A DNA stretch of 64,000 nucleotides, from the NCBI GenBank assembly GCA_947444925.1, contig CANFBW010000003.1:1-64000 (forward strand), written 5' to 3'. The notes below the pieces were generated by a model. The model ran no database searches. It saw only the letters and a list, made by a program, of their open reading frames with translations, and was not told the DNA's origin. This stretch comes from Flavobacteriales bacterium. GTDB lineage: Bacteria > Bacteroidota > Bacteroidia > Flavobacteriales_C > GCA-002722245. The position numbers were made by a program, and so were the translations under genes. Positions within the stretch are counted from its first letter, which is position 1, and every line of letters begins with the position of its first letter. Positions 5,460 to 21,912 of this stretch are shown here, piece after piece.

Positions 5460-6073
5460 TGAGAAAAATTGGACTCATAGGATATTCAGGTCACGCTTTA
5501 GTGCTTGAAGATGCGTTAAATTCGAAGGGAAGGAAGGTGTTTGGCTATTTTGAACGGGAGAAAAAAAATTATTCACTTCTTACTTATTTGGGTGATGAAC
5601 AGTTGGAGGCGAATATGGAATGGTTGCGTAACAATGATTTTGTGGTAGCTATTGGCGATAATGAACAGAGGTCAAAAATGTGTGCGATGTTGTTTGAGAA
5701 ATGTGGACATCACGCACTTTCAGTCGCTCACCAAACCAGTTATATATCGTCTTCCGCGCATATTGGAAATTCGGTTCAGGTTTTGACCAACGCTGTGATT
5801 CATCCATTGTCCAAGATTGGTAATGGAGTTATTTGTAACACAAGTTCAGTAGTGGAGCATGAATGCACTGTGGGTGATTTTTGCCACATTTCTGTTGGGA
5901 CTGTACTTTGTGGAAATGTTCAAGTAGGTGATTTCTCCTTCATAGGAGCAAATGCAGTGATTAAGCAGGGGGTGAAGATCGGTCGAAATGTTATAGTGGG
6001 CGCAGGAAGTGTAGTGCTTAGAGACGTGCCGGATAATTCAAAAGTAGTAGGTAATCCAATACGGTTCATATGA
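5459..6073 (+). CDS. legH: NeuD/PglD-type sugar O/N-acetyltransferase (probable LegH)
   Basis: A 204-residue acetyltransferase. The N-terminal part 'KIGLIGYSGHALVLEDAL' is the small nucleotide-sugar-binding Rossmann domain typical of PglD/NeuD proteins. The second half is a left-handed beta helix of hexapeptide repeats ('IGNSVQVLTNAVIHPLSKIG', 'VGDFCHISVGTVLCG', 'IGRNVIVGAGSVVLRDVPDN'). In the legionaminic acid route this enzyme N-acetylates the C4 amino group of the GDP-linked diamino sugar; a role as sialic acid O-acetylase is the alternative. The ATG at 5459 overlaps the legI stop and is preceded by GGAGG about 10 bases upstream, favouring it over an ATG at 5441. Confidence 0.85.
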   Translation: MRKIGLIGYSGHALVLEDALNSKGRKVFGYFEREKKNYSLLTYLGDEQLEANMEWLRNNDFVVAIGDNEQRSKMCAMLFEKCGHHALSVAHQTSYISSSAHIGNSVQVLTNAVIHPLSKIGNGVICNTSSVVEHECTVGDFCHISVGTVLCGNVQVGDFSFIGANAVIKQGVKIGRNVIVGAGSVVLRDVPDNSKVVGNPIRFI

Positions 6074-7125
6074 TTCAACTTGAAAAACATAAAATAAAAA
6101 AAGACAGTTATTTAACAGACGCACTAAAACAGTTGAATGATTTGACTTACATACCCAATGCTCCATTGGTATTGCTGGTAATTGAAGAGAATGGTGTGTT
6201 GGTAGGAACGGTAACAGACGGTGATATTCGCCGAGCTTTGATGGGTGGCTCCAAAATAGATTCGGCAATTGCGGATTGTATGCGAAAGGATTTTAGTTTT
6301 TTGAAGCAAGGACATTATGGAACGCGTGAAGTGAACGAATTGAAAAACAAACAAATCTGGTCTGTACCAGTTGTTGATCAAGATGGACGTGTGGTTGATT
6401 TGTTTAATTTGAAGTTTAAAAAAAGTCTGCTTCCAGTTGATGTTGTGATGATGGCTGGAGGTAAAGGACAGCGTTTGTATCCACTTACAAAAAATATTCC
6501 CAAACCAATGTTGCAAGTGGGTGGAAAACCAATACTGGAGATCAATATTGACCGACTGATAAAATTTGGAGTGCAAAATATTAATGTAAGTGTGAATTAT
6601 TTATCGGAAGTCATTACAACGTACTTTGAAAGTCAACCAAAAGAGTGTAAACTCACTTTTGTGAAAGAAGTTGAGCCTTTAGGAACATTAGGTTCTATTA
6701 CTTTGGTGGAGCATTTTGAACACGATTATGTTTTACTAATGAATTCTGATTTGTTGACGGATATTGATTACGAAGACATGCTTTCAGATATGATTAGTAA
6801 CAATGCTGATATGGTTGTTGCTTCTATTCCATATCGAGTTGCAATTCCTTATGCTGTTTTTGAAACAAAAGGAAGAACAATAAAAAGATTGTCAGAAAAA
6901 CCGACCTATACTTACCATTCCAATGCGGGCATTTATTTGTTTAAAAAAGAATTTTTGAGATTCATTCCTTCTCAATCGTTTTATAATGCTACTGATTTAT
7001 TGGAGATGATGATAGAGGCGGAACACAACGTGATGTATTACGATATCATTGGTTATTGGTTGGATATCGGAAGTCCGGAAGACTTTGAAAAAGCGCAAAC
7101 AGATATTGCACATTTGAAACTTTAA
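6070..7125 (+). CDS. ptmE: CBS-domain sugar-1-phosphate guanylyl/nucleotidyltransferase (PtmE-like)
   Basis: Residues about 5-115 form a CBS-domain pair ('VLVGTVTDGDIRRALMGG' and 'IWSVPVVDQDGRVVDLFN'). From about residue 122 a nucleotidyltransferase begins with 'VVMMAGGKGQRLYPLTKNIP', followed by 'KPMLQVGGKPILE', and continues to 'LLMNSDLLTDIDYEDM' and 'YWLDIGSPEDFEKAQ'. This architecture matches Campylobacter PtmE, which activates glucosamine-1-phosphate with GTP, the entry to the GDP-linked legionaminic acid pathway. That link is established for Campylobacter and inferred here. CBS pairs often bind adenine nucleotides, so regulation is possible. ATGA overlap with legH shows translational coupling. 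Confidence 0.87.
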   Translation: MIQLEKHKIKKDSYLTDALKQLNDLTYIPNAPLVLLVIEENGVLVGTVTDGDIRRALMGGSKIDSAIADCMRKDFSFLKQGHYGTREVNELKNKQIWSVPVVDQDGRVVDLFNLKFKKSLLPVDVVMMAGGKGQRLYPLTKNIPKPMLQVGGKPILEINIDRLIKFGVQNINVSVNYLSEVITTYFESQPKECKLTFVKEVEPLGTLGSITLVEHFEHDYVLLMNSDLLTDIDYEDMLSDMISNNADMVVASIPYRVAIPYAVFETKGRTIKRLSEKPTYTYHSNAGIYLFKKEFLRFIPSQSFYNATDLLEMMIEAEHNVMYYDIIGYWLDIGSPEDFEKAQTDIAHLKL

Positions 7126-7172: not shown

Positions 7173-8279
7173 ATGAAAATTGGGGTTATAACAACATCGC
7201 GGGCCGATTTCGGAATATATCTTCCCCTACTTAATAAAATTAAGGAGAGTGAGCATCATCTGATGCTGTTCGCCGGAGGAATGCACACTGCCTCTCATTT
7301 TGGAAATAGTCACCAATTGATTGAGGAAGCGGGATTCATCATTGGTGAAATGGTTGATGGGATATCAACTGATGATTCACCGTTCGGCTTGTGTGAATCG
7401 ATGGCCCTAACTTTAGCAGGTTTTTCAGCAGTTTGGAAAAAATACGCTGATGAGCTAGATGTTGTGTTTGTATTGGGCGATCGATTTGAAATGTACGCGG
7501 CTGCTTCTTCAATAATTCCATACAATATTATAATTGCACATCTTCACGGAGGAGAAACAACGTTGGGCGCTATAGACAATAAATTCCGAAATGCGATCAG
7601 CATGTTAAGTGATTACCATTTTGTATCGCACGAAAAACACGCGGAAAAACTTGTGCAAATGACAGGGGATTCTGCGCGGATTTTTAATGTTGGCGCACTG
7701 GGAGTTGAGAATTTACTCGGACAAAGTTTAATGAGTACTGATGCGTTTTTTGAAAAATTCAAGTTCGATATTTCGAAGGATTATATTCTAACAACGATTC
7801 ATCCAGAAACGGTTTCGGCAGGGAAAAATGTACATTTCATAGATGAGTATATTGCTGCAGTGAAAGAAATTGATATTCCGGTACTATGCACTTTGCCAAA
7901 TGCAGATACAGAAGGCAGTGTTTTGAGAGCAGCATTATTAGATTTTGAAAAGCAATTTCCTCAAAAATTGAAATGCTTTGAAAATCTGGGAATCGTTGGC
8001 TATTTTACTGCGATGAAAAATTGTTTGATAATGTTAGGGAATACGTCAAGTGGTATCATTGAAGCTGCGAGTTATCAGAAATGGGTGATAGATTTAGGTG
8101 ACCGACAAAAAGGAAGATTTGCCCCTTCTAATGTAGTGCATGTTCCTTTTGATAGAAAGGAGATTGTTCGCAATGTTCAATCGTTAAGAACTACGGATGT
8201 TAATGTAAGTCAAAATCCATATGGGAAAGGAAATACGGCAGAACAAATTTTAGGAATTCTAGAAACAGTTTTTATATAA
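7173..8279 (+). CDS. legG: hydrolysing NDP-sugar 2-epimerase (LegG/NeuC family)
   Basis: The N-terminus 'KIGVITTSRADFGIYLPLL' is the signature of NeuC/LegG-type hydrolysing 2-epimerases with a GT-B-like fold. Other landmarks are 'VLGDRFEMYAAASS', 'IAHLHGGETTLGAIDNKFR', 'ILTTIHPETVSA' and 'IMLGNTSSGIIEAASY'. The enzyme removes the nucleotide and inverts C2, releasing the 2,4-diacetamido-trideoxymannose that LegI condenses with PEP. Alone, the sequence could be a NeuC acting on UDP-GlcNAc. The dehydratase and aminotransferase next door favour LegG. There is an AGAGGAA stretch shortly upstream of the ATG. It is separated from ptmE by 47 bases. Confidence 0.9.
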   Translation: MKIGVITTSRADFGIYLPLLNKIKESEHHLMLFAGGMHTASHFGNSHQLIEEAGFIIGEMVDGISTDDSPFGLCESMALTLAGFSAVWKKYADELDVVFVLGDRFEMYAAASSIIPYNIIIAHLHGGETTLGAIDNKFRNAISMLSDYHFVSHEKHAEKLVQMTGDSARIFNVGALGVENLLGQSLMSTDAFFEKFKFDISKDYILTTIHPETVSAGKNVHFIDEYIAAVKEIDIPVLCTLPNADTEGSVLRAALLDFEKQFPQKLKCFENLGIVGYFTAMKNCLIMLGNTSSGIIEAASYQKWVIDLGDRQKGRFAPSNVVHVPFDRKEIVRNVQSLRTTDVNVSQNPYGKGNTAEQILGILETVFI

Positions 8280-8283
8280 AAAT

Positions 8284-9273
8284 ATGAAGGGAAAAATTTT
8301 AGTTACCGGCGCCGATGGTTTTATCGGAAGTCATTTGGTAGAACATCTTATAAAAAATGGTTATCCGGTTAAGGCTTTCGTGTACTATAATTCTTTTAAC
8401 TCCTATGGTTGGTTGGATACGATTGACAAATCGGTGTTGAAGGATGTTGAGTTTTTTGCTGGCGATGTGCGCGATCCCAACGGAGTGCGTGTGGCCATGG
8501 AAGGATGCGAATCAGTAATGCATTTGGCGGCGCTCATTGCAATTCCTTACAGTTACCATTCTCCCGATAGTTATGTGGATACGAACATCAAAGGAACTTT
8601 AAACATATTGCAGGCTGCAAAACAATTGAAAACAAAAAGGGTTTTAGTAACTTCTACTTCTGAAGTATATGGTACTGCACAGTATGTTCCTATTGATGAA
8701 AAACATCCTTTTCAGGGACAATCACCCTATAGCGCTTCCAAGATAGGTGCTGATAGGATGTCGGAATCTTTTTTCAAAAGCTTTGAATTGCCGGTAACGA
8801 TTGTGCGTCCTTTCAATACTTTTGGTCCACGCCAAAGTGCGCGAGCGGTGATTCCAACGATCATTACTCAGTTGTTGAATAACGTAACAGAAATCAAGTT
8901 GGGAGATCTTACACCAACGCGTGATTTGTTGTATGTAAAAGACACGATAGATGGATTTTTAAAAATTGCAGAATCACCAAAAACAATTGGTGAGGAAGTA
9001 AACATCGCTACACAAAGTGAAATAACAGTAGGTGCTCTTGCTCAAAAACTAATTGATTTGATTAATCCTCAAGCGCGAATAGTACAAGAAGAACAACGCC
9101 TTCGTCCTTCAAAAAGTGAGGTTTTCCGACTGTATGGATCCAATGAAAAAATAATGAAATTGACCGATTGGAAGCAGCAGTATTCTTTCGATCAAGCGAT
9201 AAAAGAAACAGTAGGGTGGTTTTCTAATTCAGAAAATTTAAAACAGTACAAACACGACATTTACAATATTTAA
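8284..9273 (+). CDS. legB: NAD-dependent NDP-sugar 4,6-dehydratase
   Basis: An extended SDR enzyme of 329 residues. The NAD-binding start is 'ILVTGADGFIGSHLVEHL', the catalytic centre includes 'TSTSEVYGTA' and the Tyr-Lys pair in 'SPYSASKIGADRM', and 'VRPFNTFGPRQSARAVIPT' follows. This combination matches LegB/PglF-like short dehydratases that form 4-keto-6-deoxy sugars. In the pathway it converts GDP-GlcNAc to the 4-keto-6-deoxy intermediate used by the aminotransferase that follows 3 bases downstream. The nucleotide preference (GDP or UDP) is inferred from the neighbouring PtmE-like gene. Confidence 0.9.
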   Translation: MKGKILVTGADGFIGSHLVEHLIKNGYPVKAFVYYNSFNSYGWLDTIDKSVLKDVEFFAGDVRDPNGVRVAMEGCESVMHLAALIAIPYSYHSPDSYVDTNIKGTLNILQAAKQLKTKRVLVTSTSEVYGTAQYVPIDEKHPFQGQSPYSASKIGADRMSESFFKSFELPVTIVRPFNTFGPRQSARAVIPTIITQLLNNVTEIKLGDLTPTRDLLYVKDTIDGFLKIAESPKTIGEEVNIATQSEITVGALAQKLIDLINPQARIVQEEQRLRPSKSEVFRLYGSNEKIMKLTDWKQQYSFDQAIKETVGWFSNSENLKQYKHDIYNI

Positions 9274-9276
9274 AAA

Positions 9277-10437
9277 GTGGAAAAATCATTTATTCCTTTA
9301 TCTGTTCCTAATATTTCAGGAAATGAATTAAAATATGTCAGCGAAACTATTGAGACCGGATGGGTGTCTTCTGTTGGATCGTACGTTGATACTTTTGAAA
9401 AAAAATTTGCAGAATACGTTGGGGTGAAACATGCTGTTGCTGTTGTGAATGGTACAGCTGCATTGCACGTTTCTTTGATTGTTGCAGGGGTTGAGCAAGG
9501 TGATGAAGTATTGCTTCCAAATCTCACTTTTATTGCGCCTGTGAATGCGGTGATGTACTGTAAGGCTATTCCAGTTTTTATTGATTCAGAATGGTCAACG
9601 CTTGGCATGAATCCTTCCGTTATTTGTTCTTTTATTGAGGAGCAAACAGATTTTATTGATGGCTGGACTGTCAATAAAAGAACGGGAAGAAAAATAAAGG
9701 CTATAGTCCCAATGCATACGCTTGGTTTTCCTGTTGCTTTAAGAGCATTTGCTAAATTGTGTAAAGCAAGAAACATAGTCGTTATAGAAGATGCGTCAGA
9801 AAGTTTAGGAAGTAGTTATTATGATATAAAGACTGGTGCGCTGGGTGATTTTGGATGTTTTAGTTTCAATGGAAATAAAATAATTACCACCGGAGGTGGA
9901 GGAATGATTACAACGAATAATGATGCGTTTGCAAAAAGGGCAAAGCATATAAGTACCACTGCAAAAACAGATGGGGTTTACTTTGATCATGATGAAGTAG
10001 GATACAATTATAGAATGGTTAATGTGCTTGCCGCTTTGGGTGTGGCGCAATTGGAAAGGGCAGATGAGTTTATAGAAATTAAAAGAAAAAATTTTAAAAC
10101 ATATCAAAAATTGCTGGGTGATCATCCGTATTTCTTTTTGCATGAGGAACCACTTAATTGTACTTCGAATTATTGGATGTACGCTTTAGTTTTAAAAAAA
10201 GAATGTCCTTTGACTATTGATGAATTGATTCAGCTTTTTACTGTCGAAAATATTCAGGTTCGCCCCATCTGGAAACTCATGTCAAAGCTTGAAATGTTTA
10301 AGCAGTATGAGCTAGTTGGCAATGGCGAGGCTTTTGATATTTGCAATAGAGTGCTAAATATACCATGTTCCACGGGGATGTCAGATGATCAGATTCAAAG
10401 GGTAGTAGAAGTATTGTGTAAAACCATCAAAGCATGA
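9277..10437 (+). CDS. legC: PLP-dependent sugar aminotransferase (LegC family)
   Basis: A DegT/DnrJ/EryC1-family aminotransferase of 386 residues. The start is a GTG giving 'EKSFIPLSVPNISGNELKYV'. Typical features are 'TGWVSSVGSYVDTFEKKFAE', 'AVVNGTAALHVSL', 'EDASESLGSSY', the internal-aldimine lysine in 'FSFNGNKIITTGGGGM', and 'VGYNYRMVNVLAALGVAQLE'. It should place an amino group on C4 of the 4-keto sugar made by LegB, using glutamate. The long insertion before 'KAIVPMHTLGFPVAL' is typical of LegC-type members. It overlaps legF by four bases (ATGA). Confidence 0.9.
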   Translation: MEKSFIPLSVPNISGNELKYVSETIETGWVSSVGSYVDTFEKKFAEYVGVKHAVAVVNGTAALHVSLIVAGVEQGDEVLLPNLTFIAPVNAVMYCKAIPVFIDSEWSTLGMNPSVICSFIEEQTDFIDGWTVNKRTGRKIKAIVPMHTLGFPVALRAFAKLCKARNIVVIEDASESLGSSYYDIKTGALGDFGCFSFNGNKIITTGGGGMITTNNDAFAKRAKHISTTAKTDGVYFDHDEVGYNYRMVNVLAALGVAQLERADEFIEIKRKNFKTYQKLLGDHPYFFLHEEPLNCTSNYWMYALVLKKECPLTIDELIQLFTVENIQVRPIWKLMSKLEMFKQYELVGNGEAFDICNRVLNIPCSTGMSDDQIQRVVEVLCKTIKA

Positions 10438-11120
10438 AAACATTATTCATTATTACCGCCCGAGGAGGTTCGAAAGGAATTCCCAAAAAGAACATTAGGT
10501 ATTTGTGTGGAAAACCTTTGATAGGTTATTCTATTGATATTGCGAAACAATTTGCTGCTAACGATTCTATTTGTGTATCGACAGACAGCGAAGAAATAAA
10601 AAAAGTAGTGGAAGAGTATGGATTGAAGGTGCCTTTTTTGCGTCCTACAGAATTGGCGCAAGATGGTTCCGGTAGTTTTGAAGTGTTGCAACATGCGATT
10701 TCTTATTACGAAGGTAAAGGGATGCACTACGACGCGGTGGTATTGTTGCAACCTACTTCGCCATTGAGAGAAACACATCATATTCAGGAAGCTGTGGATG
10801 TGTTTGTTAAATCAGGGGGTGATGGTGTGTGTTCTGTTAAAATTGCAGAAGCAACACCATCGTACAAATTGTATTACGAAGTGAATGATCGATTGGTAAA
10901 GTGTGAAAATGTTGATGTGATACAAAGGCAAATGGCTTCGCTGGTTTATCAGGTTAATGGATCGGTGTACGTGTTTAATCCAAGGATTTTCAAGCAGTAT
11001 AAATCTTTTGGAGAAGTATCTATGACAAAATATTTAATGACAAAAGAATATTCGTTTGACATTGATGATGAAATAGATTGGAAGATATGTGAGCTTTTGC
11101 TCAATGACAAAAATAAATAA
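10434..11120 (+). CDS. legF: CMP-nonulosonate cytidylyltransferase (LegF/NeuA family)
   Basis: A 228-residue cytidylyltransferase that activates the 9-carbon sugar with CTP for transfer. The N-terminus 'LFIITARGGSKGIPKKNIR' is the CTP-binding motif of NeuA/LegF/PseF proteins. 'VSTDSEEIKKV', 'VVLLQPTSPLRETHHI' and 'FDIDDEIDWKICE' are the other family landmarks. It closes the pathway operon. Its product, presumably CMP-legionaminic acid, would be the donor for the transferase candidates at 11177 and 16985. Whether the sugar is legionaminic or sialic acid is decided by the gene set, not by this protein. Confidence 0.92.
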   Translation: MKTLFIITARGGSKGIPKKNIRYLCGKPLIGYSIDIAKQFAANDSICVSTDSEEIKKVVEEYGLKVPFLRPTELAQDGSGSFEVLQHAISYYEGKGMHYDAVVLLQPTSPLRETHHIQEAVDVFVKSGGDGVCSVKIAEATPSYKLYYEVNDRLVKCENVDVIQRQMASLVYQVNGSVYVFNPRIFKQYKSFGEVSMTKYLMTKEYSFDIDDEIDWKICELLLNDKNK

Positions 11121-11176
11121 TGCGATTGTTGACTATAATACTTTCGGCGTTTGAAAATTAGTGAGTGATTAACAAG

Positions 11177-12697
11177 ATGATTAAAGAAAATTTTAACGAA
11201 CTTATTTCATTTCAAGAAAAGTGTAAGTCTTTTACCTTTCGATGCAAAGAGTTGGAGTTATTTCCTTTTTTACGAATAATAATTGGGTACAATGACGACT
11301 TGCAGTGCGGAAAACTAGAGGGTGATGAAATTGGACGTTTCACTAAAAAAAAGTTTAAGCAAAAAATAGGGGCTTTTCTTTACTATTTAAAAAAATCAAA
11401 GAGTTGGTCAATAGGCCCGTCGGTGAAATTTCCTCGCCAGTATTCAAAGAATAAAATCATTGTTTTTTCTTCTGACGCTCACCAGTTAGCAACTAACGGT
11501 GCGCATGCCTATTTTAATACGTGGATGTCGCCTCTTGAACTATGTTTTGACAAAATCGGATACTCTTACAAGCATTATAAATTAACCAATAATGAACTTT
11601 ATTGTGGGGGCGAATATGTGACTTCATTTACACGTTTTTCATGGTTGGTGGAAATTAAATTGGCATGGACTAATTTGGTTAATGCTTTTGGAGGCAATGC
11701 TTCAACTGTTGAAAATATTGAGGGAATTAGGGAGTTGTGGCAGCTCTTGAATCATTCAAAAATGGGTGTCACAGTGACGCTTGGAGCGCTTTCGGAAAGA
11801 GTTGAAATGTTAAATTTGAAAGTTAATTATTATCAGCGATTTTTTAAAGAAAGTAAGCCAGAGATAGTGTTTGTTTATGCCTATTATGCTGATTACTTTT
11901 TGCCAATTGTTTACGCTGCAAAATCTTTGGGAATAAAGGTGGTGGATGTTCAGCATGGTGTAATTGGCAGGGAACATTTTGCTTATACACATTGGAATGG
12001 AATAGAAAAAAAACAAATGAATTTTATTCCTGATTATTTCTTGACTTGGGATAGAAAAGTGACTCAATATATAAATGATTTTTCATCAGAGATATGCACT
12101 GCAGTAACTGTTGCTAATTTGTACACTGCATACAAAATTGCACTGCAAAAAAAACAAGTAAACCTTGAATGTATGTTGGGTCATGGTGTTGCAATGAAAC
12201 ATCATATTTTAGTTACTTCTGGTTCAAGAAAAATACCTTCGCCACTGCTGCAAATAATCAATAATGTCAAGGATGTTTTTTGGCACATAAAACTGCATCC
12301 GAGATATACCGATGACGAAAAATTATTATTTTATCATGAGACAATAAATAATATAAATGCAAAAATATATTCGAAGAACGAGGTTGATTTGTATCAATTG
12401 TTAGAGCTTTGTCAGTTACATCTTACAGAGGAATCTGCAGTTGCTATTGAGGCGGATCAATTAGGGTTGAACACAATAGTTTTTTCGGAATCTGGTAAAG
12501 ATTGTTTTTCTAATTATATAGAAGAAGGTCGTTTCATCTATTGCAATTGTGCGAATACTGAAGCGTTCATAGCGCTTCTGCAAGATGAACATTTATTTCA
12601 AAAGAGACAAATAGGCGCAATTCCAACTGTGGAAGAAAGCGCTGAAAAAATTGAAGATTTTCTTATCTACAGTTTGAAATCTAGTAGGACGATTTAA
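11177..12697 (+). CDS. QHG/HP-motif protein, candidate nonulosonic acid transferase (copy A)
   Basis: An approximately 506-residue soluble protein of a family I cannot name. It is paralogous to the protein at 16985 along its length. Shared landmarks are the N-terminal 'ELELFPFLRI', 'VVDVQHGVIG' (QHG near residue 258), 'PDYFLTWDRK', 'IKLHPRYTDD' (HP near 372) and 'HLTEESAVAIEAD' (near 418). The QHG-HP and HP-Ser spacings are nearly equal in both copies. An HP motif followed about 45 residues later by serine is a feature of several GT-B bacterial sialyltransferase families that use CMP donors. A role in transferring the CMP-nonulosonate made upstream is therefore inferred. A GTG at 11165 is an alternative start; the ATG at 11177 aligns with the paralogue. 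Confidence 0.6.
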   Translation: MIKENFNELISFQEKCKSFTFRCKELELFPFLRIIIGYNDDLQCGKLEGDEIGRFTKKKFKQKIGAFLYYLKKSKSWSIGPSVKFPRQYSKNKIIVFSSDAHQLATNGAHAYFNTWMSPLELCFDKIGYSYKHYKLTNNELYCGGEYVTSFTRFSWLVEIKLAWTNLVNAFGGNASTVENIEGIRELWQLLNHSKMGVTVTLGALSERVEMLNLKVNYYQRFFKESKPEIVFVYAYYADYFLPIVYAAKSLGIKVVDVQHGVIGREHFAYTHWNGIEKKQMNFIPDYFLTWDRKVTQYINDFSSEICTAVTVANLYTAYKIALQKKQVNLECMLGHGVAMKHHILVTSGSRKIPSPLLQIINNVKDVFWHIKLHPRYTDDEKLLFYHETINNINAKIYSKNEVDLYQLLELCQLHLTEESAVAIEADQLGLNTIVFSESGKDCFSNYIEEGRFIYCNCANTEAFIALLQDEHLFQKRQIGAIPTVEESAEKIEDFLIYSLKSSRTI

Positions 12698-12708
12698 GGC
12701 GGTCGCAG

Positions 12709-13902
12709 TTAATCCTTTGTTCCCTTCCCATCGATGCGATGTTTTTGTTTCCACTCACCATTGATTTTTTCCCACAAATGAGGAGATCTCCATGAATCTA
12801 TTACCACGTGAAATTCTTCCTCAGTAAGATCAATGTATTTTAAAAACACGTCAAAGTATTTTTTGGGGAATTCGCCATCGAATTTGGAAATCAATGCGAT
12901 TCCTTCGTTGCGAGTAAGGTGTCCATCTCTGATTTCGTGTGCAGTGTCTGATGTTGCTCTTCCTAAGCAAAACTTAATGTAGGCTAGGTAGTAGTGAAAG
13001 CCATCTATTTGATCATCTAAACCAGCGTATTTTTGATAGGTGCCTTCAATTCTTTCCGGATTTGCTTTGAATCCTGTGTTTTCAACGCAGTAGTAATAGT
13101 TTTCTTGCGGAATCCATTTTTTATAGTACCCATAAAAATGGATTTCTGTTCCAATTTTCTCAAGATCTTCAATCTCGGGTGATAAATAAGGAACAATATT
13201 TTTTTTGTCAATACCGTATTTAGTCAAGTCTTCGGGTGCGATACCTGAAAAATAATGTTTGACGTGATCGCTTTTGTAATTTCGTTGCGGATTAAATGCG
13301 TTTTTCATATCGCCACCATATTCCACTTCTCCATTTTCACCATACATAATCAATGGAATGCCAAAGTTTTTGGCGATTTGCATAGGATAGTTGGTTTGTC
13401 CGTAGATAAAGGGTTGAAATGGATCTCCTAAAATTTCAAAAGACAATTTCGTCATTTTTCGGTGCGTTTCTCCAGGAGCTGAACCACAGATGTTGTAGAG
13501 ATCTCCTATTCTAATCATGTTTTGCAAATTCTGAAAACCAATTTCTGTATATATGTGAGGAGCCCAAGTAACAGTAAGTGGATTCATGTTGTATTTGTGT
13601 TTCAGCTCGTGGGCAATATACGCACTGTCTTTCCCACCGCTGCAAGGCACAATTACATCAAATGAACCATCTTTTTTTCTGAATCTATTGCACAGATCCA
13701 TGAGTTCCTTTTCGCGTTCACTCCAATTGATTTTGTTTTTTTTGAACTCAGCAAAATTACATGCTGAGCAAACGCCATTTTCATCTAAACTTATTCGTGG
13801 TCGTTGGTTCGAAATTGTACAAGTCACACAGTATTTAACTTCTAGAGGAAGATTGTATAATGAAGTGAGGTTTTTTTGTTCAATCTTGGTAATAAGACTC
13901 AT
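12709..13902 (-). CDS. wbuX: N-acetyl sugar amidotransferase, WbuX/PseA/WbpG type (copy 1)
   Basis: An ATP-dependent amidotransferase that uses ammonia to turn an N-acetyl group of a sugar into an acetamidino group. It has an N-terminal zinc-finger-like cysteine set ('CVTCTISNQRPR' and 'GVCSACNFAEF') and the PP-loop 'VPCSGGKDSAYIAHEL' near residue 85. Also visible are 'PLTVTWAPHIYTEIGFQN' and the 'NPQRNYKSDHV' region. Together these match the WbuX family. It is 255 bases downstream of wbuY on the same strand, so wbuZ-wbuY-wbuX may be one unit supplying ammonia through WbuY. A second copy lies at 15754. The 255-base gap is AT-rich and shows no gene. Confidence 0.9.
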   Translation of the reverse strand: MSLITKIEQKNLTSLYNLPLEVKYCVTCTISNQRPRISLDENGVCSACNFAEFKKNKINWSEREKELMDLCNRFRKKDGSFDVIVPCSGGKDSAYIAHELKHKYNMNPLTVTWAPHIYTEIGFQNLQNMIRIGDLYNICGSAPGETHRKMTKLSFEILGDPFQPFIYGQTNYPMQIAKNFGIPLIMYGENGEVEYGGDMKNAFNPQRNYKSDHVKHYFSGIAPEDLTKYGIDKKNIVPYLSPEIEDLEKIGTEIHFYGYYKKWIPQENYYYCVENTGFKANPERIEGTYQKYAGLDDQIDGFHYYLAYIKFCLGRATSDTAHEIRDGHLTRNEGIALISKFDGEFPKKYFDVFLKYIDLTEEEFHVVIDSWRSPHLWEKINGEWKQKHRIDGKGTKD

Positions 13903-14157
13903 TTTACTCGACTTTTAGTTTTTACGATGGTAAATATATGATTATTTAGGTCTGCCATTTGTTTTACTTAAAATGTGTTAGTCAATAATAGTTAAAATTA
14001 CATCTTATTTGTCGAGACTGGTTAAATTGGTTGCTTTTCTAACATTATTTTGTTTTTGTGTTAGCACAGAAACCTATTTTAAATACTGTTTGATGCAGGG
14101 TATATTAAATTCTAAATACGGCATTAATCGTCATTTTCAAAAAGCATTCAATAAGAA

Positions 14158-14799
14158 TCACCTTTTGTAAATGAGTTCTTTGTAGTTTTCAAATATTTTT
14201 AATCCTTGAATACCGCTTTTTTCAGGATGAAATTGGATGCCGATCAAATTGTCTTGTACAATAGCAGAACTGTATTTGAAATTGCTATAATCGGTGCTGC
14301 ACAAGATGTTTTGTGTGCTTTTTGTTTTCACATAATTAGAGTGCACAAAATAAAAGTATTCGTTATTTGGAATGTTCTTAAATAACGGGTGGTTGGGCTG
14401 TTCGATGGACACATTGTTCCATGCAATTTGTGGAATAAATCGAGGTTGAGTATTTGTTGTTGATTCTGGGAAACGGAGAACCTCTCCTTCAATCAAGCCA
14501 AGGCCTTGGTGTACTCCAAACTCATTGCTTTGGTCCATAAACAATTGCATTCCAAGGCAAATACCAAAAATATACTTACCGGTGTTGGCGAAATCTTTTA
14601 TTGGTTCAGTCAGATTTTGTATGTACAGTTGTTCAATTGCTAGTGGATAAGCACCAACACCAGGTAAAATCAATGCATCTGCATTTTTTATTTTTTCAGG
14701 ATTGTTAGTGATTTCAACTTCGAGTCCCACTTTTTCACAAGCATGAGCAATGCTGAATAAGTTCCCCATTTTATAGTCGATTAGTGCAACCTTCATCAT
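14158..14799 (-). CDS. wbuY: glutamine amidotransferase, HisH-like, of the sugar amidation system
   Basis: A class I glutaminase of 213 residues. 'KVALIDYKMGNLFSIAHA' is the HisH-type start, 'GICLGMQLF' holds the nucleophilic cysteine, and 'GIQFHPEKSG' the catalytic His and Glu. It hydrolyses glutamine and passes ammonia through the HisF-like partner. In histidine synthesis HisH serves HisF, but here no other his gene is present and the genes sit between two WbuX-type amidotransferases. Ammonia supply for sugar acetamidino formation is therefore the better reading. It starts 1 base after the wbuZ stop, so the two are coupled. Confidence 0.9.
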   Translation of the reverse strand: MMKVALIDYKMGNLFSIAHACEKVGLEVEITNNPEKIKNADALILPGVGAYPLAIEQLYIQNLTEPIKDFANTGKYIFGICLGMQLFMDQSNEFGVHQGLGLIEGEVLRFPESTTNTQPRFIPQIAWNNVSIEQPNHPLFKNIPNNEYFYFVHSNYVKTKSTQNILCSTDYSNFKYSSAIVQDNLIGIQFHPEKSGIQGLKIFENYKELIYKR

Positions 14800-14800
14800 A

Positions 14801-15652
14801 TTAATTCGGTCTTATGTTGATGGATTTCTCAATTAATTTTGCTTTTAAAGCAGGAATGGTGGTCGTTTGAAACATTTTTGTATTCCCTATTTTATTGATA
14901 TACTCAATGTTTCCTTCGCGATAATCATCCGCAGGATCAAATAGTTCTTTGGCAATTTCGTAGTGTAAAATAGATGCAATTGCTGCTCCAGAAACAGATG
15001 TGTTGGTGAGTAGTTTTTCAACATCGTCTGGGCTCCCTGCGCCGCCACTTGCTGTAATATTCATGGTTGCAATTTCACTTACCAGCTTGATAAGCTGGTA
15101 ATCATAACCCTGTCCAGTACCTTCTTGGTCGACAGAGGTGATGATTATTTCTCCAACACCTAAGTTATTCAGTTGCCTGGTCCAGTCCGAGACTTCAAGT
15201 CCTGTGTGCTCTCTTCCATTGTCAGTGAATGCGAGGTATTTCCCATCATTTTGTTTAATAGCTTCTATTGTGACAATGATGGTGGAGGAGCCAAATGTTC
15301 TTACGGCTTCCTCAATAAATTTCGGGTTTTGGATCGCCGCTGTGTTGATGCTCACTCTATCGGCACCAACTCTTAAAGCCTCAGTAATGTCTTTTATTGT
15401 TCTGATGCCACCTGCGACAACCAATGGAATGTGAATTTGTTTTGCGACTCTCTTTATAATGTCATGCAGTGAATTGCGCTCGTACAAAGAAGCTACAGCA
15501 TCTACAAACATCAGCTCATCAGCACCTTGTGCGTAATAATATTCGGCGAATTTCTCTGGTTTCCCCACTATTCTCAGACCTTCCAAATGTATTCCTTTAA
15601 CTAGGTTTGGGCCTTTTATGTCTAATCGGGGAATAATTCGTTTACACTCCAT
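14801..15652 (-). CDS. wbuZ: HisF-like cyclase-fold partner of the sugar amidation system
   Basis: A (beta/alpha)8 HisF homologue of 283 residues, longer than the usual 250 or so because of a C-terminal extension. 'RIIPRLDIKGPNLVKGI' carries the first conserved Asp, 'ELMFVDAVAS' and 'PLVVAGGIRTIKD' follow, and 'GADRVSINTAA' and 'ASGGAGSPDDVEKLL' form phosphate sites. In the strand that carries the second catalytic Asp in biosynthetic HisF (Asp130 in Thermotoga), this protein reads 'VTIEAIKQ', a Glu. That fits a protein kept as an ammonia channel rather than an imidazole-glycerol-phosphate cyclase. It is first in the minus-strand wbuZ-wbuY unit and divergent from the second wbuX. Confidence 0.88.
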   Translation of the reverse strand: MECKRIIPRLDIKGPNLVKGIHLEGLRIVGKPEKFAEYYYAQGADELMFVDAVASLYERNSLHDIIKRVAKQIHIPLVVAGGIRTIKDITEALRVGADRVSINTAAIQNPKFIEEAVRTFGSSTIIVTIEAIKQNDGKYLAFTDNGREHTGLEVSDWTRQLNNLGVGEIIITSVDQEGTGQGYDYQLIKLVSEIATMNITASGGAGSPDDVEKLLTNTSVSGAAIASILHYEIAKELFDPADDYREGNIEYINKIGNTKMFQTTTIPALKAKLIEKSINIRPN

Positions 15653-15753
15653 TTTTTTTTTTGTAAAGGTAATTTATTGTGCAGCAATAATGGAAATTCA
15701 GCATGAATTTAATTAGCTTTACATTTCGCTTTTACTGCAGATAAATTAAGAAA

Positions 15754-16980
15754 ATGACAAATACCCGAGAAAGATATTACGGACTTCCATCAGAGGTCAA
15801 GTTTTGTAAAAAATGTGTGATGTCCAATCAAAGACCTTCCTCTGTTCCTGAATTCAAAAATGTAATTTCAGCAAAAAAACCAACGTTACACATTGCTGAT
15901 GATGGAATTTGTGATGCCTGCAAAATGGCTGAAACTAAAGTTGTGATCGATTGGAAAAAAAGGGAGGAAGAGTTAATTCAATTGCTCGATAAGCACAGAA
16001 GCAAAGATGGTTCATACGATTGTTTGGTGCCTGGGAGTGGAGGGAAAGACAGTGCTATGCAAGCTCATATATTAAAATACAAGTACGGAATGAATCCCTT
16101 GACTTGCACTTGGCCACCTATTTTGTATACTGATTATGGGTACAAAAATTGGAAAAACTGGATTGATAGTGGATTTGATAACATTGCCTATACGCCAAAT
16201 GGAAAGGTAATGAAGTTGCTGACTAAACTGTCTATTGAGAATTTATTACATCCTTTTCAAACCTTCATTTTAGGGCAAAAAAATCTAGCTCCTAAGATTG
16301 CCTCTCGTTACGGAATCAATCTAGTTTTTTATGGAGAAAACGAGGCTGAGTATGGTAATCCGATAGCTGATAATAAAACTTCTCTGCGAGACAAGTCTTT
16401 TTTTAGTTATAAAAATCTTGATGAGATGTATTTAGGAGGAGTCTCTATTGCCGAGTTGAAAGAGAAGTATGGATTGACTTATGGAGATGTGAGCTCATTT
16501 TTGCCGGCGACAGAAGCTGAGATTATGGGCTCCAACATTGACGTTCGATATTTGGGATACTATATGAAATGGAATCCTCAGGAAGTATACTATTATGCCG
16601 TTGAGAATACAGGGTTTAAAGCCCGTCCATTCAGAACGCAAGGAACGTACAGTAAGTATAGCGGAATCGATGATAAAATTGATGATCTTCATTTTTACAC
16701 AACATACGTAAAATTCGGTTTGGGAAGAGCCTCGTATGATGCGTCGCAGGAGATTAGAAACAATCACATTACAAGGGAGGAAGCTGTTGCGCTTGTGGAG
16801 CGTTTTGACGGTGAGTTTCCTGATCGGTATGTCAATGAGATTATGGATTATTTAGATATTCAGCCTGATCATTTTCATACTTTGTGTGATAAATTTCGAT
16901 CGCCTCATTTATGGGGTAAAACGGCTGATGGCAAATCGAAGTTATATCATACTGTTGGAGGCAAGGGACTTGAAGATTAA
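15754..16980 (+). CDS. wbuX: N-acetyl sugar amidotransferase, WbuX/PseA/WbpG type (copy 2)
   Basis: A second amidotransferase of 408 residues, clearly related to the copy at 12709. It has the cysteine set 'CKKCVMSNQRPS' and 'GICDACKMAET', the PP-loop 'VPGSGGKDSAMQAHIL', 'PLTCTWPPILYTDYGYKN', and a C-terminal 'DKFRSPHLWGK'. An insertion of about 12 residues between the two cysteine pairs is absent in copy 1. The two are divergent enough to act on different sugars or positions. It lacks its own glutaminase gene and presumably takes ammonia from the divergent wbuZ-wbuY pair. It is followed after 4 bases by the QHG/HP paralogue, so each wbuX lies next to one such gene. Confidence 0.9.
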   Translation: MTNTRERYYGLPSEVKFCKKCVMSNQRPSSVPEFKNVISAKKPTLHIADDGICDACKMAETKVVIDWKKREEELIQLLDKHRSKDGSYDCLVPGSGGKDSAMQAHILKYKYGMNPLTCTWPPILYTDYGYKNWKNWIDSGFDNIAYTPNGKVMKLLTKLSIENLLHPFQTFILGQKNLAPKIASRYGINLVFYGENEAEYGNPIADNKTSLRDKSFFSYKNLDEMYLGGVSIAELKEKYGLTYGDVSSFLPATEAEIMGSNIDVRYLGYYMKWNPQEVYYYAVENTGFKARPFRTQGTYSKYSGIDDKIDDLHFYTTYVKFGLGRASYDASQEIRNNHITREEAVALVERFDGEFPDRYVNEIMDYLDIQPDHFHTLCDKFRSPHLWGKTADGKSKLYHTVGGKGLED

Positions 16981-16984
16981 CTGA

Positions 16985-18544
16985 ATGGTAAGGTACAATA
17001 ATCTTATTGAAGAATTGGAGTTGAAATGCAAGGTCGATTCCATTAAATACCAAACAATACAATTATGGCCGTTAATAAGAATCATGTTGTTTTATCATGG
17101 TTATATTGAGAGCGGAAATTCAGAGAACAATCGAGTCATTATTAGTCGTAAAAGTTTTAAGTCGCGAATTGGTGATGTGATTTGGGCACTTAATAATTAT
17201 ACCGACCATGTGAAATTATTCTATGCTTTGCGTCGCAAAGAAAATCAAATATCGTTGAAGGATTCCAACGGAAATGATTCAGATAAATCAGCCCATTTTC
17301 TTTTTTTTTACTTGCAGTCCCACCGACGTCAAGTGATCGATGGTCAATTTTCAAATATTTTTCTTGATCCACTTAAAGAGTTAATTCAGAAGAAGAGAAG
17401 CGTAATTTCTTTGGAATTAGGAGCTGATTTGGATCACTTTAATTTCCCCAGGTATGGAAGAAGTTGTTTGGTGGGAAGTGTGTTTCAGAAAGCGGAAATA
17501 CGTATCGCAAGAAAACGAGTGTGGCATAATTTCAGCTCTGTTTTTGGGCTGCAAAAAAAAAGTGAAGTAGAGGGCTTCAACGATTTCAAAGAGTCGCTTC
17601 CCGAAAGTTTGCAAAATGATCTTTTTTTTGATTCAAGTATCCTAGTAAAAGAAGCGGAGATAGTTTTCGAATACCAAAAAGTGTTTGAACGCCTACTCAA
17701 GCGATACAAAACAAAGGTTGCGGTTCAAGCCTGTTTTTATCATCAATATGGAATAGCTTTAAATTTGGCCTGTGCAAAATTGAATATCAACAGTGTAGAT
17801 GTTCAGCATGGTGTATTGGAACCATTGGCCTATGGCGGGTATTGCGAAAATGGAGGGCGGAAGTTTAAAATGTTGCCCAAATATTTTTGGCTATGGGAAA
17901 AAGATTCTTGCGAGCTAATATATAAGTCGACTGGGGATGAAAACAGGGCCGTGCTGGGAGGGAATTTGTGGATGAATCGAAATTTGAAACACCACGATTT
18001 CTATTTGCCGGAAGCACAGGAATTGATCACACTGAAATCAAAGTATACTAAAGCTGTGTTGTATTCTCTGCAAACGGCGCCTGCTTCGGTAATTCCTGAT
18101 TTTATTTACGATGCAGTAGGAAAAGACAAAAGGGTTTTATGGTTGTTTAGGCTGCATCCAAGATCCTCTAATCAAGATATAGATCGAATTAAATTTTTGT
18201 TTTTGAGTCGAGGTTTTGAAAATATTGACATACACTTTGCTACACGATTATCATTACCTTTTCTGTTAGAGCAAATAGATGTTCATGTGACTCGCTTTTC
18301 TGCCATTGTTTTTGATGCGGCTACAATCAATAAACCAACAATTTTCGTTGATTCTTATGCATTTGAATTATATTCAACAGCTTATACCACATTGTGGAAT
18401 TCAGGTATAGTTAGTTTAGCCTTAAATGACAGATCATTAATAGATGCCCTGCAGAAGTACTTTTTGAACTCTGCAAATTATGATTTGAAAGGATATTTTG
18501 GCAATCACAATTTTGAGGAAAGCATCGGGCGACTTGAAAGCTAA
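16985..18544 (+). CDS. QHG/HP-motif protein, candidate nonulosonic acid transferase (copy B)
   Basis: A 519-residue soluble protein paralogous to the one at 11177. Common features are 'QLWPLIRI' near residue 26, 'NSVDVQHGVLE' (QHG near 272), 'PKYFWLWEKD', 'FRLHPRSSNQ' (HP near 389) and 'HVTRFSAIVFDAAT' (near 436). Outside these blocks the copies have drifted far, suggesting different acceptors or donors. The HP motif and a serine about 47 residues later recall GT-B CMP-sialyltransferases, but the family is not one I recognise with certainty. Coupling to wbuX copy 2 (4-base gap) supports a role in adding the amidinated sugar. No membrane segment is visible. Confidence 0.6.
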   Translation: MVRYNNLIEELELKCKVDSIKYQTIQLWPLIRIMLFYHGYIESGNSENNRVIISRKSFKSRIGDVIWALNNYTDHVKLFYALRRKENQISLKDSNGNDSDKSAHFLFFYLQSHRRQVIDGQFSNIFLDPLKELIQKKRSVISLELGADLDHFNFPRYGRSCLVGSVFQKAEIRIARKRVWHNFSSVFGLQKKSEVEGFNDFKESLPESLQNDLFFDSSILVKEAEIVFEYQKVFERLLKRYKTKVAVQACFYHQYGIALNLACAKLNINSVDVQHGVLEPLAYGGYCENGGRKFKMLPKYFWLWEKDSCELIYKSTGDENRAVLGGNLWMNRNLKHHDFYLPEAQELITLKSKYTKAVLYSLQTAPASVIPDFIYDAVGKDKRVLWLFRLHPRSSNQDIDRIKFLFLSRGFENIDIHFATRLSLPFLLEQIDVHVTRFSAIVFDAATINKPTIFVDSYAFELYSTAYTTLWNSGIVSLALNDRSLIDALQKYFLNSANYDLKGYFGNHNFEESIGRLES

Positions 18545-18545
18545 C

Positions 18546-18710
18546 TTAATTTGGCATATCCTCGCTTTTTGACTTGACAATATTTGTTTTAATTTTATTG
18601 TAATTGATGTGTGCTCTTGTCAACGGTCAAAATAAAATGTCTTTGTATTGCAGCGATTTAACATCGAATTTTTTTTCAAGTTCTTCGGAAATATCGTTGT
18701 AAAAGTGCAT
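18546..18710 (-). pseudogene. remnant of a third QHG/HP-family gene
   Basis: On the minus strand an ATG at 18710 opens a frame reading 'MHFYNDISEELEKKF', 'DVKSLQYKDILF', stop, 'PLTRAH'. Aligned without gaps to the N-terminus of copy B ('MVRYNNLIEELELKC...QLWPLIR'), 12 of the first 27 residues are identical. The in-frame TGA (18627-18629) falls exactly where copy B has a Trp codon, and the P-L-x-R after it is conserved. The frame stops again at 18546. This is the decayed start of a third family member, 50 bases downstream of wzt on the same strand, with the rest deleted. Confidence 0.75.
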
Positions 18711-18760
18711 AGCTAGCTTCAATAAATTAGATGAAAATGGACAACATTAAGTGTGTCACA

Positions 18761-20041
18761 CTACTTCAGTTCCCAAATAATTGCAGGAGCAACGATTGCC
18801 TCGCTTCTGTAAAGTTGCTTAACACTTCTAACAGTAATAGAGTCAATGATTTCAAAACTTAAAATATTGTTGTGTTCCTGAATTAGCGGATTGAATCTAT
18901 TACACATATATACATCTATGCGGTATTTCCCTGGTTTAAATAGATGAGAAGGGAAATCGAAATTAAATCCGTGATCACCCACACCCAAAGTACCGCTCAT
19001 ATAGCCTTCAGAAAAATCTTCGTCGGTGGTTACAAACAAGGTTATTTCGTCATGATTGACAACGCGGAAATTGATGTAATAGTTGGGTTGTTGTTTTGTG
19101 ATGCGCATTTTTAATTCAACATGAATTTTTTCTGTTGATTCAAAATAGGTGGCTATTTCGCGATTGCTGTTTTTAATCGACAATTCCAGCAATTGGAAAG
19201 GAAGTTCGTTTTTTGGCGCCAGTTGAATGTGCCCCAAATCACCTTCTCTTGCCTCGTTGTTGTTTTTATAAACTTCGATGATTTCGTCCACTGTGCCGTC
19301 GGCAATTTTTTCTCCTTTTTTAAGTAAAATAGCGCGGTTGCACAACTGTTTGATTGCAGCCATATTGTGGCTCACAAATAAAATGGTTTTTCCGCCTTGG
19401 GCAACATCCTGCATTTTTCCTATACATTTGTTTTGGAATTCATAGTCACCAACAGCCAAGACTTCATCAATAATCAAAATTTCTGGGTCGAGATGCGCCG
19501 CTACAGAAAACGCAAGGCGCACTCTCATTCCGCTGGAATAACGCTTGACAGGAGTGTCAATGAATTTTCGTACACCAGAAAACTCAATGATTTCCTCCAT
19601 CTTTTGGTTGATCTCTTTTCGAGTCATTCCTAAGATGGTACCATTCAAAAAAATGTTTTCTCTACCAGTTAAATCCGGATGAAATCCAGTTCCAACTTCT
19701 AATAAACTAGCGACTCTTCCGTTGATTGTAACCTCGCCATTTGTTGGTTCCGTGATTCTTGACAGAACTTTGAGTAAAGTGCTTTTTCCAGCTCCGTTCA
19801 TTCCAATGATGCCGAGCGCCTCTCCTTTTTTTACTTCAAAATCAATGTCTTTCAGTGCCCAAAACACATCGTCACCTTCGTCATTAAAGGAACTCAAGTT
19901 TTTTAGTTTCTTAAAGCTTTTAAATGGCGATTTTAAAAAGGCTGCCAATGAAGAGGCGAGACTGTCGTGCATCTCTTCTTTTAAGCCGATGCGGTAACGC
20001 TTCGATAAACCCTCTACTTTTATGACTGTTTCGTTTTTCAT
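18761..20041 (-). CDS. wzt: polysaccharide ABC exporter, ATP-binding protein with C-terminal domain
   Basis: The ATPase of an O-antigen or capsule ABC exporter. 'VIKVEGLSKRYRIGL' begins the nucleotide-binding domain. Walker A is 'GMNGAGKSTLLK' near residue 80, the signature is 'KRYSSGMRVRLAFSVA', Walker B 'EILIIDEVLAVGD', and the switch His is in 'FVSHNMAAI'. From about residue 265 there is a beta-rich extra domain of about 160 residues, as in Wzt proteins that recognise the finished, end-modified glycan. It starts 1 base downstream of the wzm stop. The presence of this pair, with no flippase or polymerase seen, points to ABC-dependent export. Confidence 0.93.
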   Translation of the reverse strand: MKNETVIKVEGLSKRYRIGLKEEMHDSLASSLAAFLKSPFKSFKKLKNLSSFNDEGDDVFWALKDIDFEVKKGEALGIIGMNGAGKSTLLKVLSRITEPTNGEVTINGRVASLLEVGTGFHPDLTGRENIFLNGTILGMTRKEINQKMEEIIEFSGVRKFIDTPVKRYSSGMRVRLAFSVAAHLDPEILIIDEVLAVGDYEFQNKCIGKMQDVAQGGKTILFVSHNMAAIKQLCNRAILLKKGEKIADGTVDEIIEVYKNNNEAREGDLGHIQLAPKNELPFQLLELSIKNSNREIATYFESTEKIHVELKMRITKQQPNYYINFRVVNHDEITLFVTTDEDFSEGYMSGTLGVGDHGFNFDFPSHLFKPGKYRIDVYMCNRFNPLIQEHNNILSFEIIDSITVRSVKQLYRSEAIVAPAIIWELK

Positions 20042-20042
20042 T

Positions 20043-20951
20043 TTAGGCTACATCAGCAAATATACTTTCCTTACTTCTGAAAAAATAAATACCTGAAACA
20101 AGTATAAGCAAAGACATAATTGTTCCGTTCAAGATAAGGTCCCATGGCATATTTGGGTAAGCTTTACCACCGATTAATGCAGTCCTGAAACCTTCAATGA
20201 CTCCAACCAAAGGAAAAAAGCTGTATATTTTCTCGAAGTAATTGGCAATGCCGTCAATGCCGCTCCACGATTCAATTCCCTGAGTGATGCCCTTTAATCT
20301 AGAGAAAGGCCAAACGATAGGCGCCATGTACATCATGAATTGGGCTAGAAAAGTAACAATTTGATTTAAATCTCTATACTGAATGGCTAATGCTGAAAAC
20401 CAAAGAGAAATACCAAATGAAAACATAATAAGAATCAATATCAGTAAGGGAAGGAAAAGTATATTTCCATTGATTTCAACGCTTCCGGGTTGTGTTTGGT
20501 AGTAGTAAAACAACATAAAACCCAAAACCACCATTGCAATTCCAAAATCTACCAACTTTGCAATAATGGGCACAAGAGGAATGATCAATCTAGGGAAGTA
20601 TACCTTGGTAATGAATGATTCATTACTGATTAAGCTAGAAGTAGAGGCTGTCAGTGCAGAAGAAAAGTAAGTGAATGGAACTAGCGCCACAAAGTTAAAG
20701 ACCATGTACGGCACAGAATCATCGTCCATTTGTACCTTAGCAATATAGGTGAACAAAAACGTGAAAATGATCATTTGTACCATAGGTTTGATTACCGCCC
20801 AACCAAAGCCAATTACACTTTGTTTGTAAACAACCTGTACATCTCTTTTAATTAATGTGAAAAGCAAATCTCTGAATTTGAATAATTCTAAGAAATCTTG
20901 CTTGCTAAAAAGTTGCCAGGAAAGTCGTTTTTTTATTTTTAGTTCACTCAT
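20043..20951 (-). CDS. wzm: polysaccharide ABC exporter, permease
   Basis: A 302-residue ABC-2 type inner-membrane permease with about six hydrophobic segments. The amphipathic start 'LELFKFRDLLFTLIKRDVQ' and 'YKQSVIGFGWAVIKPMVQM' are typical of Wzm/TagG proteins. 'GISLWFSALAIQYRDLNQI' and 'YMAPIVWPFSRL' follow in the usual places. It forms the membrane channel for the polysaccharide with Wzt, whose gene follows directly. It is preceded 11 bases upstream by fcl on the same strand, so gmd-fcl-wzm-wzt look like one transcription unit. Confidence 0.93.
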   Translation of the reverse strand: MSELKIKKRLSWQLFSKQDFLELFKFRDLLFTLIKRDVQVVYKQSVIGFGWAVIKPMVQMIIFTFLFTYIAKVQMDDDSVPYMVFNFVALVPFTYFSSALTASTSSLISNESFITKVYFPRLIIPLVPIIAKLVDFGIAMVVLGFMLFYYYQTQPGSVEINGNILFLPLLILILIMFSFGISLWFSALAIQYRDLNQIVTFLAQFMMYMAPIVWPFSRLKGITQGIESWSGIDGIANYFEKIYSFFPLVGVIEGFRTALIGGKAYPNMPWDLILNGTIMSLLILVSGIYFFRSKESIFADVA

Positions 20952-21910: not shown

Positions 21911-21912
21911 GA

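Follow-up and report, generated by a model that had tools for sequence, protein, structure and literature searches.

A stretch of 64,000 nucleotides from a Flavobacteriales bacterium (contig CANFBW010000003.1, positions 1 to 64,000; below, the window) carries a locus for nonulosonic acids (NulOs), in which an initial annotation had singled out two open reading frames (ORFs), P1 (11177..12697, + strand) and P2 (16985..18544, + strand), as a candidate transferase family. Both ORFs are indeed present at these positions. P1 encodes a predicted GT-B glycosyltransferase of what we call the QHG/HP family, and P2 encodes a second, deeply diverged member of it. For P1, the ATG at 11177 lies four codons past an alternative GTG start at 11165 and is favored by the N-termini of its relatives. 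Our analysis suggests, with a probability that we put at roughly 0.73, that this family consists of poorly described NulO transferases.

According to profile matches, the region upstream of P1 holds a complete pathway for cytidine monophosphate (CMP)-activated legionaminic acid (Leg), in line with the earlier view that the locus makes a CMP-nonulosonate. Between positions 4437 and 11120, all on the + strand, we found genes for the NulO synthase NeuB/LegI (4437..5459; TIGR03569, 473 bits against a cut-off of 400), a NeuD/LegH-type acetyltransferase (5441..6073; TIGR03570, above cut-off), a protein with CBS and nucleotidyltransferase domains (6070..7125; PF00483 and PF00571) that we take to be PtmE-like, a NeuC/LegG-type 2-epimerase (7173..8279; TIGR03568, above cut-off), the LegB 4,6-dehydratase (8284..9273; TIGR04180, above cut-off), the LegC aminotransferase (9277..10437; TIGR04181, above cut-off) and a CMP-NulO synthetase (10434..11120; PF02348, 80 bits; PseF model, 145 bits, below cut-off). 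The last of these directly precedes P1, which is downstream of it and co-directional.

Putative acetamidino genes lie beside P1 and P2. They comprise two N-acetyl sugar amidotransferases, WbuXa (12709..13902, − strand) and WbuXb (15754..16980, + strand), which scored 342 and 329 bits with TIGR03573 (cut-off of 203), and, between them on the − strand, a HisH/WbuY-type glutaminase (14158..14799; TIGR01855, above cut-off) and a HisF/WbuZ-type cyclase partner (14801..15652), whose best match, TIGR03572, reached 249 bits and thus stayed below its cut-off of 300. Only 4 bp separate the stop of WbuXb from the start of P2, both on the + strand. The annotated adjacency of each gene to a wbuX copy therefore stands; P1 and WbuXa, however, converge tail to tail and do not form one operon. 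Adjoining P2 is a Wzt/Wzm-type polysaccharide ABC exporter (18761..20951, − strand; Wzt_C match below cut-off), followed by GDP-fucose synthase and GMD ORFs (20963-23025), whose identity was read from the sequence by eye with no profile scan. A GT2 glycosyltransferase (2419-3291) is the sole other recognized glycosyltransferase among the scanned locus genes. As had been supposed, no known sialyltransferase was apparent: GT38 (PF07388) had no match in the whole genome at 0.01, GT52 gave none either in a scan whose control also stayed silent and which therefore is no evidence of absence, and P1 and P2, scanned against all of Pfam-A and NCBIfam, matched no named family above its curated cut-off.

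P1 and P2 are homologous to each other (BLASTP E value of 2e-22, 23% identity across 468 amino acids), and their likeness, which is beyond chance as judged from the alignment, extends outside the motif blocks. With P1 numbered from the GTG at 11165, the motif residues are QHG 263-265, KxHP 376-379, S424 and E429 in P1 and QHG 274-276, RxHP 389-392, S439 and D444 in P2. The His of the DVQHG block thus corresponds to H264 and H275, the His of the LHPR block to H378 and H391, and the Ser of the H-L/V-T-x2-S block to S424 and S439. The spacing from the QHG His to the HP His is 114 residues in P1 and 116 in P2, and that from the HP His to the Ser is 46 and 48, respectively; the near constancy noted in the initial annotation holds, while its values of 114/117 and 46/47 were off by at most one residue. 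In the comparison of the whole family, P1 and P2 were 20% identical, and in the family tree, the deep forks of which are weakly supported, P1 clustered with three congeneric genes (100/100), whereas P2 had no close relative. Because of this low identity and the separate tree positions, a recent local tandem duplication was ruled out. Searches of the Protein Data Bank (PDB) with the P1 and P2 sequences and with the family profile returned nothing meaningful; a match of P2 to ribosomal protein LX (0.0067) was discarded as a short chance match.

The family was assembled as a set of 19 proteins from four phyla, consisting of the two window genes, eleven genes from genomes of the same class and six from a collection of 84,980 species. 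Two of the eight loci found in the latter search lay on contigs already represented by class genomes G122 and G183, each being counted a single time, and a truncated twentieth member (G277, L049) was excluded from the alignment. The members from beyond the class genomes belong to Syntrophomonadaceae, a gammaproteobacterium, Chryseobacterium, Legionella sp., Peregrinibacteria and Jejuia. Invariant across all 19 members are, in P1 numbering, P34, QHG, Y274, HP, S424 and A430. Closer inspection of the alignment revealed a Lys or Arg two residues ahead of the HP His, i.e., a (K/R)xHP motif, in 19/19 members, as well as a Ser at +45 to +50 from this His and a Glu or Asp at +5 from the Ser, again in every member. 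According to a study of the enzyme KrkA (PMC12887879), sialyltransferase families 29, 38, 42, 52 and 80 share (K/R)xHP with families 99 and 107 of 3-deoxy-D-manno-octulosonic acid (Kdo) transferases, and the basic residue of the motif usually contacts the cytosine. KrkA binds CMP at its phosphate through His227 and Ser271/272 and at its ribose through Glu276, and the H227A variant is inactive (PMC12887879). The His-to-Ser distance is +44 in KrkA, +46 in P1 and +48 in P2, and the Ser-to-acid distance is +5 in all three. The reading of HP followed by Ser as a signature of the CMP-binding type was thus borne out across the family by agreement with the KrkA contacts.

AlphaFold2 models, built on an alignment of 10 sequences, reached a mean predicted local distance difference test score of 73.8 and a predicted template modeling score of 0.79 for P1 and 77.3 and 0.81 for P2. 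The GT-B fold expected by the initial annotation was predicted for both proteins, and a structure search matched both models to GT-B enzymes with Z scores of 15-19 over about 300-330 residues. The best matches were UDP-GlcNAc 2-epimerases, 1f6d for P1 (Z of 19.1, root-mean-square deviation [rmsd] of 3.7 over 321 residues) and 6vlc for P2 (Z of 18.9, rmsd of 3.9 over 328). TarL with CDP-ribitol (8va1) was matched by P1 and P2 alike with a Z of 15.9, and the bacterial polysialyltransferase 5wc6 appeared in the list for P2 (Z of 15.9, rmsd of 3.8 over 304); no GT52 or GT80 structure was among the 50 structural matches listed for P1 or P2 (VIA-align). For the predicted models, such matches establish GT-B and do not by themselves pick the donor.

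The genomic distribution of the family is consistent with a role in NulO metabolism. Among 295 genomes of the class, NeuB is present in 165. P1-type matches occurred in 15 genomes, 14 of them with NeuB, where three of the 15 (G007, G103 and G108) hold only distant relatives; P2-type matches occurred in 12 genomes, 11 with NeuB. The sole NeuB-less genome is in both cases G183, which is 56% complete. GT11, a polysaccharide transferase family used as a control, was found in 82 genomes, 60 with NeuB. When distances were compared, 11/16 placeable P1/P2-type matches lay within 25 kb of NeuB versus 9/84 GT11 matches (p of 3e-6), and 7/16 versus 7/84 lay within 10 kb (p of 0.001); these counts, and those for the NF046086 profile discussed below, leave out matches for which a NeuB position was lacking (one P1/P2, 13 NF046086 and 14 GT11). 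In 16 of the 18 family genomes, a NulO synthase and/or CTP-transferase gene was found at most about 27 kb away on the contig of the family gene (the window's genome, G157, G093, G077, G122, G146, G030, G011, G111, G090, G277, L056 and L059-L062), and cytidylyltransferase genes are present at most family loci. In G157 the link consists of a CTP-transferase-like gene only and in G277 of a CTP-transferase gene only, and the distance is about 11 kb in L062, the identity of whose contig was verified, and about 26 kb in L061, whose contig was matched by length only. The two unlinked cases are G183, whose contig ends 2.3 kb away from the gene, and L055, a contig of 9.8 kb.

Two sets of genomes illustrate this linkage. 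In L060, a metagenome-assembled genome of Legionella sp., a complete Leg pathway is followed by a family member. A P2-type gene occurs in only 3/45 genomes of this genus, and in L060 an asparagine-synthase-like amidotransferase gene (8039-9958; PF00733) separates this gene from that of the CMP synthase and could provide an alternative route of NulO amidation. In the window's own genus, G157, G093 and G011 have flanking genes of this locus in common, and other NulO or CMP-sugar genes are there paired with other family members, and G126 has neither NeuB nor a family member. Donor genes and transferase hence vary together at one locus within the genus. At this locus in G157 (L036, G157:C27:5000-24900), a module of a P1-type transferase, a GFO/IDH/MocA oxidoreductase and a cytidylyltransferase-like gene is present in two copies (9660-19900), which suggests a CMP-sugar other than the usual NulO or synthase genes located elsewhere. 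A 311-residue protein of the window (3384-4319), for which neither Pfam (E ≤ 0.001) nor NCBIfam (E ≤ 1e-5) gave a match, is 77-80% conserved at the same locus in two congeneric genomes (L036 and L039). The window further encodes a 1927-residue protein (23832-29615) that is extremely rich in Lys, Glu and Gln and probably forms a coiled coil.

The specificity for amidinated Leg proposed by the initial annotation was not upheld. Among the family loci, the stretches examined contained WbuX in the window, in G122 and G146 and on the Peregrinibacteria contig but nowhere else, and in G122 two oxidoreductase genes separate it from the P2-type gene. WbuXb orthologues with 72-75% identity were identified in G020, G024, G122 and G240. 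In G240 (LegC-LegH-NeuB-LegG-PtmE-like-CMP synthase-HisF-HisH-WbuXb) and G020 (HisF-HisH-WbuXb, with NeuB on another contig), WbuXb is followed by proteins of 346 and 373 residues, the latter ending at the contig edge, which match PF07388 with 32.0 and 34.2 bits (cut-off of 23.3). By profile assignment, the slot that P2 occupies is in these genomes filled by a GT38-family protein, and since two of the four close WbuXb orthologues besides the window show this replacement, no rule can be derived. With most relatives lacking WbuX nearby, WbuX pairing was rejected as a family rule; amidinated-Leg specificity is unsupported for the family and possible for P2. The two GT38-family genes (L102:10695-11735 and L104:3-1121), lying right after WbuX in acetamidino cassettes, are themselves candidate legionaminyl transferases of the GT38 type. 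In G024, the neighbor of WbuXb is of neither kind, and a gene matching the profile of the QHG group lies about 6 kb off; in G150, a gene upstream of the Leg genes encodes a protein whose PF07388 match stays below threshold. In G270, where WbuX is 48% identical, the stop of the CMP-synthase gene is overlapped by a gene whose product belongs to the wider superfamily and has (K/R)xHP and no QHG. This 517-residue protein (L106, 11129-12682) scored 54.7 bits with NF046086, below cut-off, and lies in a NeuB-WbuX-HisF-HisH operon.

We propose that P1 and P2 would be cytoplasmic GT-B glycosyltransferases that move a CMP-activated NulO of the Leg type onto a surface glycan, which is probably the export polysaccharide of the adjoining Wzm/Wzt pair. 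The donor of P1 is probably CMP-Leg produced by the operon to which P1 belongs, while P2, encoded directly after WbuXb, may take the acetamidino form. The invariant QHG His, placed by the models where an N-domain strand ends, would be the best candidate for activating the acceptor. An inverting single displacement appears more likely than the double displacement of Kdo transferases because the nucleophilic Asp of the QxxxD motif of those enzymes is not conserved: the Gln of QxxxD occurs in most members and is missing from P1 and its three genus relatives, and no conserved Asp stands at that place across the 19 members. A retaining mechanism of the Kdo type was thus judged unlikely. A far more detailed version, in which an uncatalogued, multiphylum group of CMP-nonulosonate transferases relies on the QHG His rather than the acidic D/E-D/E-G motif for the acceptor base and is exchanged between strains together with the donor pathway, in which P1 and P2 act on differently modified Leg (P2 on the acetamidino form), and in which one of them caps the chain for Wzt export, is tentative and, taken as a whole, rather doubtful.

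The donor assignment had to be weighed against the view that P1 and P2 are ordinary GT-B transferases for surface polysaccharides that use a non-CMP donor, for example GDP-fucose, and merely share the locus with NulO genes. GMD and GDP-fucose synthase genes lie at the same locus and stand near a family member in three of the four same-genus family genomes (window, L039 and L045), the GT-B fold accommodates a wide range of donors, and the substrates of the closest solved folds are UDP-sugars. Yet the GT11 control is far less NeuB-linked than the family (9/84 versus 11/16), (K/R)xHP occurs in 19/19 members, cytidylyltransferase genes accompany most of them, and the GMD genes in the shared flank are 89-94% alike, whereas the transferases differ widely. 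We therefore consider a non-CMP donor unlikely.

Two further readings were judged far less probable. P1 and P2 could be polyol-phosphate transferases of the TagB/TagF/TarL kind that use CDP-glycerol or CDP-ribitol. As is proposed for P1 and P2, these PF04464 proteins are cytidine-nucleotide GT-B enzymes; TarL with CDP-ribitol is present in both structural lists, and the N-domain His before Gly may, on unaligned sequences, equal the His of the TarL H300N entry. PF04464 also matched P2 with 18.2 bits (0.0013), below its gathering score of 22.1. However, it had no match to P1 at E ≤ 1 and was detected at 0.05 in only 1/13 and 1/10 members scanned, no gene for CDP-glycerol synthesis was found among the scanned proteins of the window locus, and the consistent neighbors are NulO genes, which makes this assignment very improbable. 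The prominence of UDP-GlcNAc 2-epimerases among the fold matches (Z of 19.1 and 18.9) could instead mean that P1 and P2 resemble sugar-nucleotide 2-epimerases and help to make NulO rather than transfer it. Here the window already encodes a NeuC/LegG protein above cut-off, PF02350 had no match to P1 or P2 at E ≤ 1, and a conserved N-terminal part of roughly 95 residues, with P34 in 19/19 members, falls outside the matched region; of all readings, we give this one the least credence.

Several observations weigh against a NulO transferase function itself. The Ser-x4-Glu element occurs also in GT-B enzymes that use other donors. No acidic D/E-D/E-G motif was found among the conserved family columns, and both structural lists are topped by the epimerases and not by sialyltransferases. 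In G157, oxidoreductase and cytidylyltransferase genes adjoin two P1-type genes on a contig that lacks NeuB. Finally, SpsB of Bacillus subtilis, a TagB-like protein with HP motifs encoded inside a Leg operon, is dispensable for Leg transfer (PMC7439481), an analogy warning that gene neighborhood can mislead.

If the NulO transferase assignment is right, its value would lie in the scarcity of such enzymes, since few that transfer Leg or pseudaminic acid (Pse) are available. Being recognizable from its sequences and linked to NulO pathways in at least three phyla (Bacteroidota, Pseudomonadota and Peregrinibacteria), the family would permit annotation of many orphan NulO loci, would supply tools for making Leg-containing glycans and may help to fill a gap in how bacteria use sialic acid-like sugars.

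Comparison with established systems places the family at some distance from each of them. GT38 polysialyltransferases are likewise GT-B enzymes with (K/R)xHP, and 5wc6 is one of the structural matches of P2, but PF07388 had no match to P1 or P2 at E ≤ 1. Nor were PF07922, which we take to correspond to GT52, and the models that we assume to represent GT80 listed for either protein in the all-Pfam-A scan at E ≤ 1. The retaining Kdo and Pse transferases of families GT99, GT107, GT118 and GT140 likewise surround CMP with (K/R)xHP, Ser and Glu residues (PMC12887879), and the KpsC structure 6mgd weakly matched the QHG-group profile (E value of 0.27). In contrast to these enzymes, the family lacks the conserved nucleophilic Asp of QxxxD, and PF05159 had no match to P1 or P2 at E ≤ 1.

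The closest kin appear to be the proteins of the BFO_1060 family (NF046086). P1 matched this model with an E value of 9e-14 and 51.3 bits, the curated cut-off being 200, P2 had no match at E ≤ 1, and 8/13 members of the class family alignment were matched at 0.01. Profile comparisons connected the P1 family with the QHG group (99.6%) and the QHG group with the BFO_1060 type (98.8%), while the direct comparison of the P1 family with BFO_1060 by hhalign gave 59.5% and covered the C-terminal part only; the profiles thus suggest a remote relationship to the BFO_1060 and Tannerella GtfS kind via an intermediate QHG/HP group. All 47 genomes with NF046086 matches have NeuB. This figure is weakened by six of 20 loci (L073-L075 and L078-L080), which hold proteins without (K/R)xHP, possibly neighboring transferases of the same glycan; the case therefore rests on the P1/P2 family itself. 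P1 and P2 differ from the BFO_1060 type in being longer, with an extra N-terminal part, and T/A-E-G stands close to the position of QHG in two of three BFO_1060-type proteins, in an alignment uncertain there by a few residues. In the 295 class genomes, the sole protein above the NF046086 cut-off is that of G247, with the gene order PseB-PseC-PseF-x-PseH-like-PseI-BFO_1060. No paper on BFO_1060 was found in the literature searched, but gtfS of Tannerella forsythia also comes after pseI (PMC6120980), and because the gene order agrees, BFO_1060 would be the gtfS orthologue, so that its family probably includes Tannerella NulO transferases demonstrated in vivo. While no prior description of the QHG/HP family was found in the open-licence literature of PMC and no named family fits above cut-off, the claim of a new family is therefore limited by remote kin for which knock-outs have demonstrated NulO transfer: loss of GtfS (Tanf_01245) or TFUB4_00887 in T. 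forsythia abolishes Pse5Am7Gra or the Leg derivative (PMC6388019, PMC6120980), and these proteins are, like P1 and P2, HP-motif GT-B proteins encoded beside NulO genes.

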